Shown here one piece after another: positions 9,748 through 28,204 of a DNA stretch of 56,003 nucleotides. The position numbers were made by a program, and so were the translations under genes. The notes under the pieces are model-generated. The model was given only the letters and a program-made list of their open reading frames with translations. It was not told where the DNA came from and made no database searches. Source of the stretch: a virus. The first letter of the stretch is position 1. Every line of letters begins with the position of its first letter. The DNA is taken from positions 1 to 56,003 of the IMG/VR virus record IMGVR_UViG_3300020179_000039. The stretch is one strand, 5' to 3'.

Positions 9748-9754
9748 TGACTTG

Positions 9755-10129
9755 TGGAGGTGGTGGGATTCGAACCCACGTCCAATAAAGAAGCAGTTCA
9801 ATGCAGCTTATCACATGCTTAGTACTGATCATTTTGTTGACGTCAACGAAATGGTCTGCACCGTAAAGGCACACCAAGTAGGTCGCACTCCACCACTTAG
9901 TTTTACGAACTAAGAAACGTGTTTGTGACTTTCTGTTCCAAGGTTGTCACCACCCGATGACTAGGCAGCAAGTTCTAACTCAGCACCCACGAAAGACATA
10001 GCGTCTTCCCAAGTCATAGACGAAAGTTCAGTTTCGCCGGTTATATTCTGGTACGTGATTATAGAGAGCAGGACCATCTCTCTGCATGTGCATTGACCCT
10101 CGCAGTACTGTCGAAAGCCTTTCACCCCC
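9755..10129 (-). ncRNA. ssrA: tmRNA (transfer-messenger RNA)
   Basis: This 375-base tmRNA frees stalled ribosomes by adding a degradation tag. The minus-strand 5' end GGGGGTG pairs with the 3' end CACCTCC over seven base pairs with one G-U. The segment GGCTTTCGACAG matches the conserved tmRNA GGATTCGAC region. A T-arm with loop TTCGAAT lies just before the 3' acceptor strand. The internal tag frame (9961-10038) starts near GETELSSMTW, ends GAELELAA and stops with TAG. Discriminator A is present and the terminal CCA is not fully encoded. The ~25-residue tag is much longer than the roughly 10-residue tags usual in bacteria. Confidence 0.88.
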
Positions 10130-10130
10130 C

Positions 10131-10461
10131 ATATTATAACTGATTTCATTAGGTGGGAATCCTGACTACCCACAAGTCCAACGTATACCCCTTTTAACCT
10201 ATAGTCCAACAGAGTAGCTAATTCTGTTGTGTTGACTAGCTGGATTATCTACCAGCACCTGCTGCAGAGATCAGTATAGTATACTTCGCAGGACTACAGA
10301 GCTTATTGGTTGCGCTCACCTTTAAGATGCATGGTTTTATCTCATATACATGACAACGTGCTTCCTAGTGCTTTTCAGCACAGTGACACTACCTTAACCC
10401 CTCTCAAGAGTTTGTTCAGTCACAAATGAAAATCAGATTTTTCAAAGAACGATTTATTCTG
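10131..10461 (-). other. Gene-free stretch with several stable hairpins
   Basis: About 330 bases without a coding frame lie between the tmRNA 5' end and the tRNA-Met 3' end. On the minus strand I see at least three perfect hairpins: GTGCT-GAAA-AGCAC at 10368-10381 with a GNRA tetraloop, GCTGG/CCAGC at 10239-10256, and CAACAGA/TCTGTTG at 10207-10229. This is more structure than expected of a spacer. It could be a separate RNA, or the processed leader of a transcript running through tRNA-Met and tmRNA. No known RNA family is recognised. Confidence 0.4.
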
Positions 10462-10536
10462 TTGCGGGGGTGAGATTCGAACTCACGTGGTTTGGCTTAT
10501 GAGACCAAGCTGGAACCTACTCCAGTCCACCCCGCC
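10462..10536 (-). tRNA. tRNA-Met (CAT), initiator-like
   Basis: This minus-strand tRNA has the anticodon loop CTCATAA (anticodon CAT) and a T-arm GTGAG-TTCGAAT-CTCAC. The acceptor GGCGGGG pairs with CCCCGCA except at the first position, where G1 faces A72. An unpaired 1-72 position and two G-C pairs in the anticodon stem are features of bacterial initiator tRNA, and the stretch GCGGGGTGGA also matches initiator sequences. The D-arm is irregular (CTGG/CCAG set two bases late). CCA is not fully encoded. Elongator Met or a lysidine-modified Ile tRNA are the alternatives. Confidence 0.8.
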
Positions 10537-22181: not shown

Positions 22182-22796
22182 ATGGGAGTAGATATCTACG
22201 GTATTTCACCGAAAATTATTGGTATAAAACCTGAATTTCCAAATGATGATATTTGGAATAATTTATCTTCTGAAGAGAAAGATGCTCATTTCAAAGCAAT
22301 AGATGACTTTGAAAATAACAACCCTGGTTATTATTTCAGAAATAACTGGTGGGCTTGGAGACCTATTCAATATTTAATGATAGGTCTAAATGACAATTAT
22401 GGTTTAGGATTAACAGATGAACAATGCAAACTGTTAGGTGAAAACAGTGGTCTTGTAACTGATGACTCAGACACATGTAATCGTTTAGCAAATGCATTAG
22501 AAACAATCATCAATGATTTAAAACAAGATAACACCGAAGTTGTATGGATGCTTTCAGGAAGCTGGTCTCAACGTGCTGTAATGGATGGTGGTAGAATAAC
22601 ATCTATCATGCCTTCTAAATCAGTAATTAACACACTAAACAATAAGTATGGTGTAAACAGACTTTCTTTTGAAAAAGAATTTACAACAGATGATAAACCT
22701 GATGTTTTGTACGAACCTTCTCACGGAAGCTCTCTAAAAAACATTGAACGGTTCATTGCGTTTTTACGCAATTGTAATGGATTTGAAATTCATTAA
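22182..22796 (+). CDS. Unknown conserved phage protein
   Basis: This 204-residue protein starts MGVDIYGISPK and contains NPGYYFRNNWWAWRPIQYL (near residues 49-67), then a helical part and LSGSWSQRAVMDGG. Proteins with this GVDIYGxxP opening and a Trp-rich WWAWRP motif recur in phages and bacteria without assigned function. It lies 13 bases upstream of the MoxR-type ATPase. Confidence 0.65.
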   Translation: MGVDIYGISPKIIGIKPEFPNDDIWNNLSSEEKDAHFKAIDDFENNNPGYYFRNNWWAWRPIQYLMIGLNDNYGLGLTDEQCKLLGENSGLVTDDSDTCNRLANALETIINDLKQDNTEVVWMLSGSWSQRAVMDGGRITSIMPSKSVINTLNNKYGVNRLSFEKEFTTDDKPDVLYEPSHGSSLKNIERFIAFLRNCNGFEIH

Positions 22797-22809
22797 TAAA
22801 AAAACTAAC

Positions 22810-24153
22810 ATGCAGCATCATATTTTATTTAAAGCAGAAGCCACATCAGGTGGTGTAAGTATTAAAGTTCTTAATTTTAAGGACATCAAAAAACAATTCC
22901 CTCATTTTGAGGAAGATACACTTAAAGTATCTTGTAATCTAGGCAACTTACTTCGTTTTCCTATTCAAACATGGTTTATTTCTACTATGTCTAATACTCC
23001 AGGTGAAGAAGTAAATCAGTATCAAGTAGCCGGCGAACATCATATTCATATTGCAGAACAAAAAGCATTATTTTTAAACGATAATGTTTTTGTTTTACCA
23101 AGTACTCCTGCAAGTAATCCTACAAGTGATGAGCTTGTATACTTGTTTAATCACATTCTATCAAATGAATATGACTTTGGTGTACCTGCTGATGAAAAAG
23201 TACGGACTCTTGCAGAGCTGTATGCTCCATATGGATATACAATTGATGTTGATGCTATATTGAATCCGCCAGTACCAGAGACTATTGAAGAAGCAGTAGA
23301 AATTGGTAGTTCTCTACATGATTTTATTAAATCTAAGTACCCTGTACCAGATATTAAAAAAGCAGGATTCTCTATTGATCCTGATATCTGGTATTTGCTT
23401 GTTCGTAACGTACTTCGTGGAGAAAATACACTTATTATTGGACCTACAGGTACTGGTAAAACAGAATTGATTTCTCTACTTGCACAGTCTATGGGATTAC
23501 CAATGCATACACAAGATATGGGTACTGTGCAAGATGCTCAATCTGCATTACTTGGTGTACACCGTCTTAATAGTGATGGTAAAAGTGAATTTGATTATGC
23601 ACCTTTTGTGCATAATATTCAACAAGAAGGTGTTATTCTGCTAGATGAGCTTAACCGTTCACCTCTCGCTGCAAATAATATCTTATTTCCTTGTCTAGAC
23701 CGTCGTCGTTATTTACCTGTTGATATTGCTGATTCAGATGCTGATCGTCGCATTCCAGTGCACGAGAAAGCAATTTTCTTTGCTACTGCAAACTTGGGTT
23801 CAGAATATTCAGGTACACAGATGATTGACCGTGCGTTATTAGACCGCTTTTTTCCGATTGAATTGGATTACCCAATTGAAAAAGAAGAAGTACGTGTTCT
23901 TGTAAACCGTACAGGTGTAGATGAAAAGAGTGCAAAAGCTATTGTAAAAGTTGGTAATCAGATTCGCAGACAGTTTAAAGAACAAGAATTGTCTAATGCT
24001 ATTTCTGTACGTCATACTTTACAAGCAGCTAATCTTGTAAAAGATGGATTTGCTCTTGAAAAAGCTCTATCAAGTACTATTATGCCGTTGTTTGAAGACG
24101 GTATTGGTGCAAGTGAGCGCAGTAAAGTCAAATCAATTATTGCAGCATTTTAA
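22810..24153 (+). CDS. MoxR-type AAA+ ATPase
   Basis: In this 447-residue AAA+ protein the first ~180 residues are a family-specific N-terminal region. The ATPase core then has Walker A GPTGTGKT (near residue 211), Walker B VILLDELNR (near 275), sensor 1 FFATANL (near 320) and the arginine-finger region RALLDRFFP. The DELNR and LDRF forms are typical of MoxR/CobS-like members. Such ATPases work with VWA partners to remodel or activate target complexes. The VWA gene follows by ten bases. An earlier frame start inside the upstream gene is not used. Confidence 0.85.
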   Translation: MQHHILFKAEATSGGVSIKVLNFKDIKKQFPHFEEDTLKVSCNLGNLLRFPIQTWFISTMSNTPGEEVNQYQVAGEHHIHIAEQKALFLNDNVFVLPSTPASNPTSDELVYLFNHILSNEYDFGVPADEKVRTLAELYAPYGYTIDVDAILNPPVPETIEEAVEIGSSLHDFIKSKYPVPDIKKAGFSIDPDIWYLLVRNVLRGENTLIIGPTGTGKTELISLLAQSMGLPMHTQDMGTVQDAQSALLGVHRLNSDGKSEFDYAPFVHNIQQEGVILLDELNRSPLAANNILFPCLDRRRYLPVDIADSDADRRIPVHEKAIFFATANLGSEYSGTQMIDRALLDRFFPIELDYPIEKEEVRVLVNRTGVDEKSAKAIVKVGNQIRRQFKEQELSNAISVRHTLQAANLVKDGFALEKALSSTIMPLFEDGIGASERSKVKSIIAAF

Positions 24154-24163
24154 TTAATTAATT

Positions 24164-26086
24164 ATGGGTTTCAGAGATTGGTTTAACCGAAAAGAAGAGA
24201 ATAATTACTCTTATTATGACAGTTCTCGTAGACTTATATCTTGGGATACTGGTTACAAAAACTACTCTGACTTTCTTGTTGATTCTAAACGTGGTAAAAA
24301 AGGTATTTCTGATGTTTCTAGCATCTTAAATTCTATGTTGCGTGTAATGGGTGTCCCTAAAAGCACCCGTTTCACCAGCAAAGCCACAGCTTCAACATCT
24401 ACTTTAGAGTTACCTATTGGTATTCTTAAAAATGATGAAGGTAAAGTAGAATTGACAGGTGAAAAAGTAGATGCTTTTTATGGTAAAAGTGTACTGAATG
24501 CAAGTTTAAACACACTTATGACAAGTGCAGATAAAACAGCATATGTACACGCCGTAAATAAATCTAAAAAATCTGGTGATTTACAGTCTATGATACGTGT
24601 TCTTCTTGATGATGAACGTATTCACAGAGAATTGTCAGAATCATATCCAGGATACAGTCGATTTGCTCAAAAGCATAAAGAACATATTTATGCAAAAGCA
24701 GAAGATTGGTTAAGTAAACCAGCTGAATCTGAGATGGAAGAAGTAGTTCAGCTTTTGACAATGTTGATTCGTTATCCTAAAGATGTTCCAAAAGAACTTC
24801 TTGAAAAATATTCAAAACTTGTAGACTATTTACAGAAAATATTCAATAAGTTTGATGGTATTCCAAGAACGTCTGAAGATGCTGATAAAATCACTAAAGC
24901 AATCTATAATACTGTAATTAAGTACATAGATGAAACTTTACCCCCACCTCCACCTCCAGGTCCTGGAGAAGATGGAGAGAGTGATGAAGGTGATGAGGGT
25001 GACGATACTAGTGACAGTTCTGATGATTCTACTAAACCTGACAGCGAAAAAACACCTTCTGACAAACGTAGAGATACAAGAAAACGTAAATCTAGTTTGA
25101 GTGCAGCATTTGCTGATTCTGTTAAATCAGTATATGAAAATTTAGTAGATCAAATTGAAACACCTGAAGAATCAGAAAAGAATGAAGAAATAGCTAAATC
25201 TATTACTGAAGAAATAGAAAAAGCTGAAGAAGCAAGCAAGTTTACATATGGTAAAGATGATGCAGACCCTACAAAAACGGGAATTCATTTTCTAACACCA
25301 GATGCTAACAAATCAAGATACGATGCTACAAAATCTAAAATAGATATTGCAAAAGCACAAGTTCTTAAAAAGCTTCTTTCTCGTAAAAGTAAAGATTATG
25401 ATTTTGCTTTAAAATCTATGCGTTCAGGTAGACTTGATACAAACAAAATTGCAGAAGCAGTTCAACATGTCCCTACTATTTATGAAAGAATAGGGAATGT
25501 AAAGACTAATAAAATTTGCATTGGTGTTTTGATTGACGAGTCAGGTTCAATGAGTGGGGATTCAATTGATAAAGCAAGAGAAGCTGCTATATTTATTAAT
25601 GAAGCATTAGGTAAACTACCTGATGTTGAATTATTTATTTATGGTCACTCTGCTGATCAAATGGGTTCACGTACTACAGAAATTTATACTTATCGCGAAC
25701 CAGGTAAATCAGTATCTCCTTATGCTTTAGGTGGTTGTAAAGCACGTTACGAAAATCGTGATGGTGTTGCAATACTTGAAACTGCTAAACGTATCCGAAA
25801 ATTTACTCAGAACAATGGTGTGCTATTCGTTTTATCAGATGGTGCACCAGCTGCTTCAGGATATAATGGTGGTACAGGAATTAGAGATACTAAAGAAAAA
25901 GTTAACCAAGTTGAGAAATTAATAGGTTTTCAAGTAATTCAAATTGCTATTAATAACCATGTTCCTTCAGAGCAAATGTTTAATCATTTTGTAAAAATGA
26001 CAGACATTAAAACTCTACCAATTGACATGGTTAATTACTTGTCTCGCCACATTAACAGGTTGGTTAAAGAAAAGTACACAATGTAA
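24164..26086 (+). CDS. VWA-domain protein (CobT-like partner of the ATPase)
   Basis: In this 640-residue protein the N-terminal ~260 residues are helical. A Pro-rich hinge (PPPPPPGPG) and a highly acidic linker follow to about residue 310, with further acidic helices. The C-terminal VWA domain has a complete MIDAS core DESGSMS near residue 458 and LSDGAPAASG near 558. The acidic linker before the VWA is as in CobT-like proteins. It would bind a metal ion and a target protein and work with the adjacent AAA+ ATPase. A strong terminator follows, closing the operon. Confidence 0.82.
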   Translation: MGFRDWFNRKEENNYSYYDSSRRLISWDTGYKNYSDFLVDSKRGKKGISDVSSILNSMLRVMGVPKSTRFTSKATASTSTLELPIGILKNDEGKVELTGEKVDAFYGKSVLNASLNTLMTSADKTAYVHAVNKSKKSGDLQSMIRVLLDDERIHRELSESYPGYSRFAQKHKEHIYAKAEDWLSKPAESEMEEVVQLLTMLIRYPKDVPKELLEKYSKLVDYLQKIFNKFDGIPRTSEDADKITKAIYNTVIKYIDETLPPPPPPGPGEDGESDEGDEGDDTSDSSDDSTKPDSEKTPSDKRRDTRKRKSSLSAAFADSVKSVYENLVDQIETPEESEKNEEIAKSITEEIEKAEEASKFTYGKDDADPTKTGIHFLTPDANKSRYDATKSKIDIAKAQVLKKLLSRKSKDYDFALKSMRSGRLDTNKIAEAVQHVPTIYERIGNVKTNKICIGVLIDESGSMSGDSIDKAREAAIFINEALGKLPDVELFIYGHSADQMGSRTTEIYTYREPGKSVSPYALGGCKARYENRDGVAILETAKRIRKFTQNNGVLFVLSDGAPAASGYNGGTGIRDTKEKVNQVEKLIGFQVIQIAINNHVPSEQMFNHFVKMTDIKTLPIDMVNYLSRHINRLVKEKYTM

Positions 26087-27079: not shown

Positions 27080-27350
27080 GAAAACCGACATCAACATTAG
27101 CAAACGACCTTACGGTCAGACAACTTATCACTCAGGATCTTATGTAACAAGTGGTATTTTATGGGAAGATGAATATCAACCCGACGAAGTATTCCCTTTT
27201 AGCGTAGAACTTCATCATGACTTAGACAATGCACTTTTTGAAGTGGGTAAAATTGAATGGCAAGATGGTATAAAACCTTCAAACCATGAAGAAATTGAAG
27301 AAAGAATTACGTTAAATTTTTACAATCAACAAACAAGTCATTCTTTATGA
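27072..27350 (+). CDS. Unknown small protein
   Basis: This 92-residue acidic protein with strand-like segments overlaps the previous gene by eight bases and ends in ATGA shared with the radical SAM gene, so the two are translationally coupled. No family is recognised. Confidence 0.6.
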   Translation: MSKKTDINISKRPYGQTTYHSGSYVTSGILWEDEYQPDEVFPFSVELHHDLDNALFEVGKIEWQDGIKPSNHEEIEERITLNFYNQQTSHSL

Positions 27351-28204
27351 AACTATTGGAGAGGAAGTCTATGTTAATTCGTGAGAGCGGAAGAAGCACA
27401 GACTTTATCTCTCCGAGTTTTGGACACGGTTGTTTATTCAATTGTACTTATTGCTATATGAAGCGACATAAACCGGAAGGACTAGATGTTGCAACAAATA
27501 CAGGTGACATTCTTACAGCTATTAATAATCATGCTTGGTTTGCTGTTGTAGATAAACCTAATCAAACACATCCAGAATATGTTACATATGACATATCCTG
27601 TAATGAAGACTTTGCACTTCATTTAAAATATCATAAGTGGCAGAAAATATTTGACTTTTTTGTAGATCATCCCCGTGCTATGGGTTCATTTGCTACAAAG
27701 TATGTTAATTCAGATTTACTCACTTATAACCCAAATAAAAAAATTCGCATACGATTTAGTTTAATGCCTCAAAAGTATGCTGATGTATTGGAACCAAATA
27801 CTACAAAAATTATAGATAGGATAAGAGCTATTAATAATTTTATAGAAGCTGGTTACGATGTACACATTAACTTTTCTCCTGTTATTGTGACAGAAAATTG
27901 GTTAACGCAGTACAGAATGTTATTTGAAGGTGTTGATGCTATTGTGGATAGAAAGTATAAAGATCAGGTTAAAGCTGAAGTTATATTTCTTACACACAAT
28001 CGTAATAAACATCAATATAACATTTCTAATCACCTAACTGGTGAAGAATTATTATGGAATCCTCAAATACAAGAAGATAAAATTTCTCAATATGGTGGAC
28101 TTAACATACGTTATAAACACGATTTAAAGTCTCAATATATTAATGAGTTTGTTCAACTACATAATGAGGTTATTCCTTGGAATCACATTAGATATATATT
28201 TTAA
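27347..28204 (+). CDS. Radical SAM protein, spore photoproduct lyase-like
   Basis: This 285-residue protein has the [4Fe-4S] motif CLFNCTYC (CxxxCxxC) near residue 27, preceded by SPSFGHG. It has the layout of SPL-like radical SAM enzymes: YDISCNEDFALH (near residue 82), MGSFATKYVN, RIRFSLMPQ and a VHINFSPVIV strand. Spore photoproduct lyase reverses a UV thymine lesion; relatives in phages are uncharacterised and may repair or modify DNA. It overlaps its neighbour and is followed by a tiny membrane protein. Confidence 0.75.
   Translation: MKLLERKSMLIRESGRSTDFISPSFGHGCLFNCTYCYMKRHKPEGLDVATNTGDILTAINNHAWFAVVDKPNQTHPEYVTYDISCNEDFALHLKYHKWQKIFDFFVDHPRAMGSFATKYVNSDLLTYNPNKKIRIRFSLMPQKYADVLEPNTTKIIDRIRAINNFIEAGYDVHINFSPVIVTENWLTQYRMLFEGVDAIVDRKYKDQVKAEVIFLTHNRNKHQYNISNHLTGEELLWNPQIQEDKISQYGGLNIRYKHDLKSQYINEFVQLHNEVIPWNHIRYIF

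Follow-up and report, generated by a model that had tools for sequence, protein, structure and literature searches.

In trans-translation, a tmRNA charged with alanine acts together with SmpB, translation resumes on the tag that the tmRNA encodes, the ribosome is released and the tagged protein undergoes proteolysis. The reason why phages carry a tmRNA is an open question in the field. Phage-encoded one-piece tmRNAs are known from Bacillus phage G, the mycobacteriophages Bxz1 and Wildcat, and others (PMC4131195), and phage tmRNAs have also been described elsewhere (PMC7162821, PMC9004378); in mycobacteriophage Wildcat, no lytic gene is expressed more highly than the tmRNA (PMC7474061). A two-piece tmRNA of the Melnitz type is found in marine phages (PMC9004378). 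Outside phages, the extended ssrA tag of Mycoplasma is read by Lon, the specific protease with which it is known to have co-evolved (Gur and Sauer 2008; Ge and Karzai 2009; as cited in PMC11986505).

The tmRNA analyzed here resembles those of phage G, Bxz1 and Wildcat in being a complete ssrA gene in a phage genome, but it differs from them in the other likely host phylum and in a long tag with a phage-specific insert that is common to unrelated lineages. The lengthened tag is also a feature of Mycoplasma; however, the Mycoplasma tags are bacterial and end in AFA-type residues, whereas the present tag belongs to a phage, keeps a host-type ...AA end, and has another insert sequence and a putative partner. 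Like the Melnitz-type tmRNA, it comes from an aquatic phage and has an RNA element of cis-regulatory type inside the gene or close to it; the Melnitz-type RNA, in contrast, is two-piece, of the alphaproteobacterial type and associated with a glutamine riboswitch, whereas the element here is a wcaG-like hairpin. A search of the literature, with most subscription papers outside its coverage, found no match to five stretches taken from the two inserts described below and, judging from titles and abstracts, brought up no paper that apparently deals with tmRNA in Crassvirales.

The tmRNA gene

The whole stretch of DNA that was analyzed, 56,003 nucleotides in length, is referred to as the window. 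Its first-pass annotation had proposed a phage-encoded tmRNA, and both the Rfam covariance model RF00023 and ARAGORN bear this out: the model matches positions 9752-10129 of the minus strand over its full length with 88.5 bits (E 4e-33; the cut-off, or gathering score, is 47 bits), and ARAGORN calls a tmRNA with the tag GETELSSMTWEDAMSFVGAELELAA. The proposed tag of about 25 residues thus agrees with that read by ARAGORN; the strand, which had not been named, is minus. The features of the locus are collected in Table 1.

The ends of the tRNA-like domain, predicted to pair over seven bases, do so as GGGGGUG/CACCUCC with one G-U wobble, G3-U70, which is the alanine identity element. The T-arm with its UUCGAAU T-loop, the GGCUUUCGACAG segment and an internal frame ending in ...LELAA followed by TAG were all found as first described. 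The 3' CCA is absent from the gene, the discriminator A being followed by CAA. As had been noted, no SmpB gene is visible in the window, and none was found in 37 related records, many of which are fragments.

Table 1. Features of the tmRNA locus and its neighbourhood in the window.
Feature	Position	Strand	Evidence or remark
One-piece tmRNA gene	9754..10129	minus	RF00023 (88.5 bits) and ARAGORN
Acceptor stem, 5' strand GGGGGUG	10123..10129	minus	Sequence and alignment; G3 in G-U wobble
Acceptor stem, 3' strand CACCUCC	9756..9762	minus	Sequence; discriminator A at 9755
Tag frame, resume codon GGC to stop TAG, GETELSSMTWEDAMSFVGAELELAA	9961..10038	minus	ARAGORN; resume context like that of Bacteroidota tmRNAs
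Conserved tag insert ELSSMTWEDAMSFV (family core ELSxMTFEDAMxFV)	9988..10029	minus	47 contigs with the core; pN/pS 0.46
Tag C-terminal end GAELELAA, host-degron-like	9964..9987	minus	Compare Bacteroidota ...NYALAA / ...DYALAA
Hairpin UUU-stem-AAA-stem'-UGGUGGA, pseudoknot domain	9887..9919	minus	33 nt identical to cyanophage leader DNA
tRNA, anticodon CAU by inspection, closed by U-G pair	10461..10536	minus	Could not be named by ARAGORN
manA-RNA-like stretch between tRNA and tmRNA, weak, tentative	10143..10441	minus	29.3 bits

The phage and its likely host

The record is a linear fragment of 56 kb, and close relatives measure 97-121 kb. The window contains the terminase and portal by which crAss-like phages are recognized; both match members of this group, among them phages of Bacteroides, Flavobacterium and Cellulophaga, although the identities are low (~22-27%). 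Because the phage is crAss-like, a host in the Bacteroidota is likely and is our best guess from these matches.

A cyanobacterial host was also considered. It is suggested by the 33-nt match to cyanophage DNA (Table 1), by the nearest portal, that of Leptolyngbya phage Lbo-JY46 (35%), and by the capsid of Microcystis phage Mel-JY01, which is 51% identical to that of a T4-like member of the tag family described below. Several observations make this host less likely: the terminase falls together with those of crAss-like and Flavobacterium phages, the start and ends of the tags fit Bacteroidota, Lbo-JY46 has little else in common with the window, and neither Lbo-JY46 nor Mel-JY01 has a tmRNA over the cut-off.

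A modular tag

Bacteroidota tags were collected from one genome sample and one pattern-selected set. In both they comprise 9-10 residues (in the genome sample GENNYALAA, GEYNYALAA, DNYDYALAA, ANDYSYAMAA and DNNYSYRLAA). The phage tags begin with G, D or A, as the Bacteroidota tags do, and their ends (GADYALAA, GADYAVAA, NEYDMAA, GANEYALAA and GAELELAA) are in Bacteroidota style; the resume context is also alike. Between this host-like start and end, the phage tags hold about 15 extra residues. The original description of the tag as far longer than usual therefore holds against Bacteroidota, but long tags are not unique, since the tags called in a tag-blind sample of viral tmRNAs range from 8 to 33 residues and Mycoplasma tags are lengthened as well. 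Going beyond that first view, the phage tag is modular and common to unrelated phages.

A second tmRNA in one Bacteroidota genome (G143), examined as a candidate phage tmRNA, turned out to be a degraded GENNYALAA copy. At L349 (1262-1673), a Bacteroidota genome carries a second tmRNA copy that is degraded.

Two families of conserved inserts

A terminase search of viral contigs recovered two relatives, L016 and L082, whose terminases are ~67-68% identical to that of the window and whose tmRNAs encode the tags GNVELSEMTFEDAIEFVNEYDMAA and GNVQLSEMTFEKAIEFVNEYEMAA, respectively. A degenerate scan of viral contigs for the core ELSxMTFEDAMxFV then placed it in the tmRNAs of 47 metagenomic contigs; the tmRNA was called by ARAGORN in 38 of them, and the remaining nine plainly show this tag frame on inspection. 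One of these nine loci (L125) stops within the tag, and its record has a full Rfam tmRNA match. Every match to the core pattern, in this family and in the second one described below, is a tmRNA frame, and each phage genome has the ELS core a single time, within the tmRNA. The tag frame is kept in related phages; with this and with the covariance-model match, the initial proposal withstands the refuting conditions that had been set for it.

The carriers are of more than one kind, crAss-like as well as T4-like. Of the 37 records examined, 12 contain a capsid gene of the T4 type (Gp23). By terminase, another six of the 37 are closely related to the window: two have the ELS core (L016 and L082), one has a tmRNA of the second family (L015) and three have no tmRNA. 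The core is also carried by L151, a distant crAss-like relative (terminase 29%). It is absent from the GTDB species genomes when searched with the strict pattern, the ELS-type tag has no tblastn match among 50,697 named phage records, and the tag family has no match in the PDB. Conservation of the insert across unrelated phages, together with its absence from the bacterial genomes, suggests that the tag, and not only ribosome release, is under selection.

A second recurring core, ANMNKVFSLL, was exposed by a tag-blind scan on the tRNA-like end, which yielded 55 viral tmRNA calls. This core was found in 72 contigs, always in tag frames or parts thereof, and 49 of the contigs have ARAGORN tmRNA calls. 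The tags comprise about 35 residues (for example GKNNSRVVALGANAQIEANMNKVFSLLREEVAVAA) when translation is taken to resume at the codon that the TTAAATGGC context points to, a probable start that ARAGORN often places later. Their layout is that of the ELS type. The second family is present in 29 records of cultured Flavobacterium psychrophilum phages, so the question of why phages carry a tmRNA can be tested in culture. In one of these phages, Fpv20, the place of the tmRNA is unannotated; Rfam finds the tmRNA with 58.2 bits and ARAGORN misses it.

Further viral tags were observed in the course of the analysis. L386 has a 33-residue tag, GEITNEVGTRADVEAVIRFIAPVAQEVELELAA, and the same hairpin element as the window, and possibly represents a third tag type. 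The tags of L362 and L387, AKLQAVGLIRTEEVTVA and GNVLDKMETLGLVRESEVTVA, have similar ...EVTVA ends and are perhaps another family. In a huge phage, L188 (LR756508.1 92434-92880) is a tmRNA with an open frame suggestive of a further long tag; L193 (LR756508.1 414804-414915) is a 112-nt match that may be a tRNA-like domain only.

Selection on the insert and its possible function

Since a tag pattern biases the sample, selection was estimated from nine members found by other means, namely terminase, hairpin or tRNA-like-domain searches. Over the 14 insert codons, which represent few independent lineages, pN/pS is 0.46; this value replaces a first estimate of 0.27 that came mostly from members found by the tag pattern. 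For the core of the second family, pN/pS is 0.33 in four independently found members. The insert is conserved at the protein level; the core varies mostly silently, and selection, as estimated from these codons, acts on the insert peptide.

The reading that we favour, and consider rather probable, is that of a functional accessory phage tmRNA that would use host SmpB, keeps a host-type degron and carries the insert as a docking peptide. Because the anatomy is intact and the tag constrained, we infer activity in trans-translation. The tmRNA would be expressed and, during infection, charged with alanine, and with host SmpB it would enter ribosomes stalled on broken or cleaved mRNAs. Translation would resume at GGC and add a 25-residue tail composed of a host-type start (G/D/A), the ELSxMTFEDAMxFV peptide, which is phage-specific, conserved and about 15 residues long, and a host-type end (...DYALAA or ...ELAA). 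As the end is of host type, it should stay readable by ClpXP-like proteases of the host. The insert would be a putative docking segment for a partner, such as a host or phage adaptor, a protease or another protein, which may set the speed or the place of destruction of the tagged proteins. A changed fate of these proteins is plausible because the insert is conserved while the C-terminal end is host-like, and these phages seem to have changed what rescue does to proteins. The inserts are not significantly amphipathic as helices, which gives no direct backing to a model of docking by a helix. Four of 20 phage records have a ClpP gene at a distance of ~3.6-7.3 kb from the tmRNA; the proximity is suggestive of a partner in these phages, and phage ClpP was rejected as a general one.

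Alternatively, the long tag could be a mere spacer, serving protease engagement or reflecting lax selection, in a tmRNA that boosts rescue while host mRNA is degraded. The widely varying lengths of viral tags and their host-like ends would agree with this, but length alone does not explain residues conserved in two separate families at the pN/pS values given above, and we regard a spacer as unlikely. It is still more doubtful that the tag is a label other than for degradation, or a decoy, which keeps tagged proteins away from the proteases of the host or inhibits a host factor by binding to it: an insert that is phage-specific, without a match in the GTDB species genomes, and conserved across phage lineages would suit such a role, whereas C-terminal ends that are still host-degron-like speak against it. 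There is little to recommend the idea that the coding sequence of the insert is kept for RNA structure, through folding with the pseudoknots, rather than for the peptide. The tag-coding DNA is indeed well conserved among the T4-like members; however, differences between insert codons are most frequent at the third position (238, versus 128 at the first and 88 at the second), and the observed pN/pS lies below all 1000 column-order shuffles, whose minimum is 0.485.

Gain and loss of the tmRNA

In a tree of tmRNA backbones with the tag removed, the second-family tmRNAs cluster together (support 100/99), and all phage tmRNAs stand apart from seven Bacteroidota ones (88/91, at an open fork). The terminase of L015 is ~69% identical to that of the window, yet its tmRNA lies inside the second family, which indicates that whole tmRNAs have been exchanged or replaced. 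In L010 and L077 the tmRNA alone is missing from an otherwise aligned stretch, and in L005, L030 and L067 the missing part extends from the 3' end of the tRNA through the 3' end of the tmRNA; the whole records behind L005, L010 and L077 contain no tmRNA over the cut-off. Because close relatives lack it, the tmRNA is accessory and dispensable, and its presence in more distant relatives favours loss as the probable course of events. These absences and the missing CCA might hint at a tmRNA that was picked up from a host by chance and is now decaying without function, but this is hardly credible in view of the full-length model match, the intact acceptor stem and frame, the constrained tag, the homologues in many phages and a backbone that groups with phage tmRNAs.

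A hairpin in common with wcaG leaders

The wcaG RNA (RF01761) is a riboswitch candidate of cyanophages (PMC2864571). The 33 nucleotides of the hairpin in the window are found unchanged in Synechococcus phage leader DNA, directly upstream of the wcaG RNA (cyanophage S-H68). They were considered as a sign of a shared tmRNA, and this was rejected, as the cyanophage copy is leader DNA beside wcaG. The first searches had yielded 32 distinct phage tmRNAs; a scan with the pattern UUU-stem-loop-AA-stem'-UGG(U/C)G detected the hairpin in seven of them, compared with 0.19% of dinucleotide shuffles, in 3 of the 55 tmRNAs of the tag-blind sample (one already among the seven), and three times in the cyanophage leader. 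Among host-type tmRNAs, about 100 in number and mostly from Bacteroidota (103 rows, including two phage loci and a few duplicates), the same scan found it in none, a second difference from the host tmRNAs besides tag length. Stem sequences differ while pairing is kept, and the element is therefore structural.

The UUU-stem-AAA-stem'-UGGUG hairpin is the only module in common with wcaG RNA, to which the window scores 15.8 bits against a cut-off of 42. Whereas wcaG is a 5' leader element, the window has one copy within the tmRNA. The common hairpin opens a new way to approach the wcaG RNA, which is so far unexplained. A bolder combination, which we put forward tentatively and hold to be possible but doubtful, is that Bacteroidota phages re-engineered trans-translation, placing a conserved phage-specific peptide, of which there are at least two unrelated versions, into every rescued protein and so directing it to a dedicated partner, and that the hairpin module was reused in tmRNAs and wcaG leaders, with wcaG perhaps assembled from such a general phage RNA module and not a sugar sensor.

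Neighbourhood of the gene

The Bacteroidota-type promoter pattern has no match just upstream of the tmRNA and is not clearly enriched in the window. The manA-RNA-like stretch (Table 1) scores below the cut-off for manA RNA (RF01745), which is 55.2 bits, and a similar stretch with 29.8 bits was observed in the relative L110; apart from this, manA RNA is known in cyanophages and in marine metagenomes. Elsewhere in the window, on the plus strand, a pair of CobS/CobT-like AAA+ and VWA genes was observed at 22744-26086, and a spore-photoproduct-lyase-like radical SAM protein is encoded at 27347-28204.
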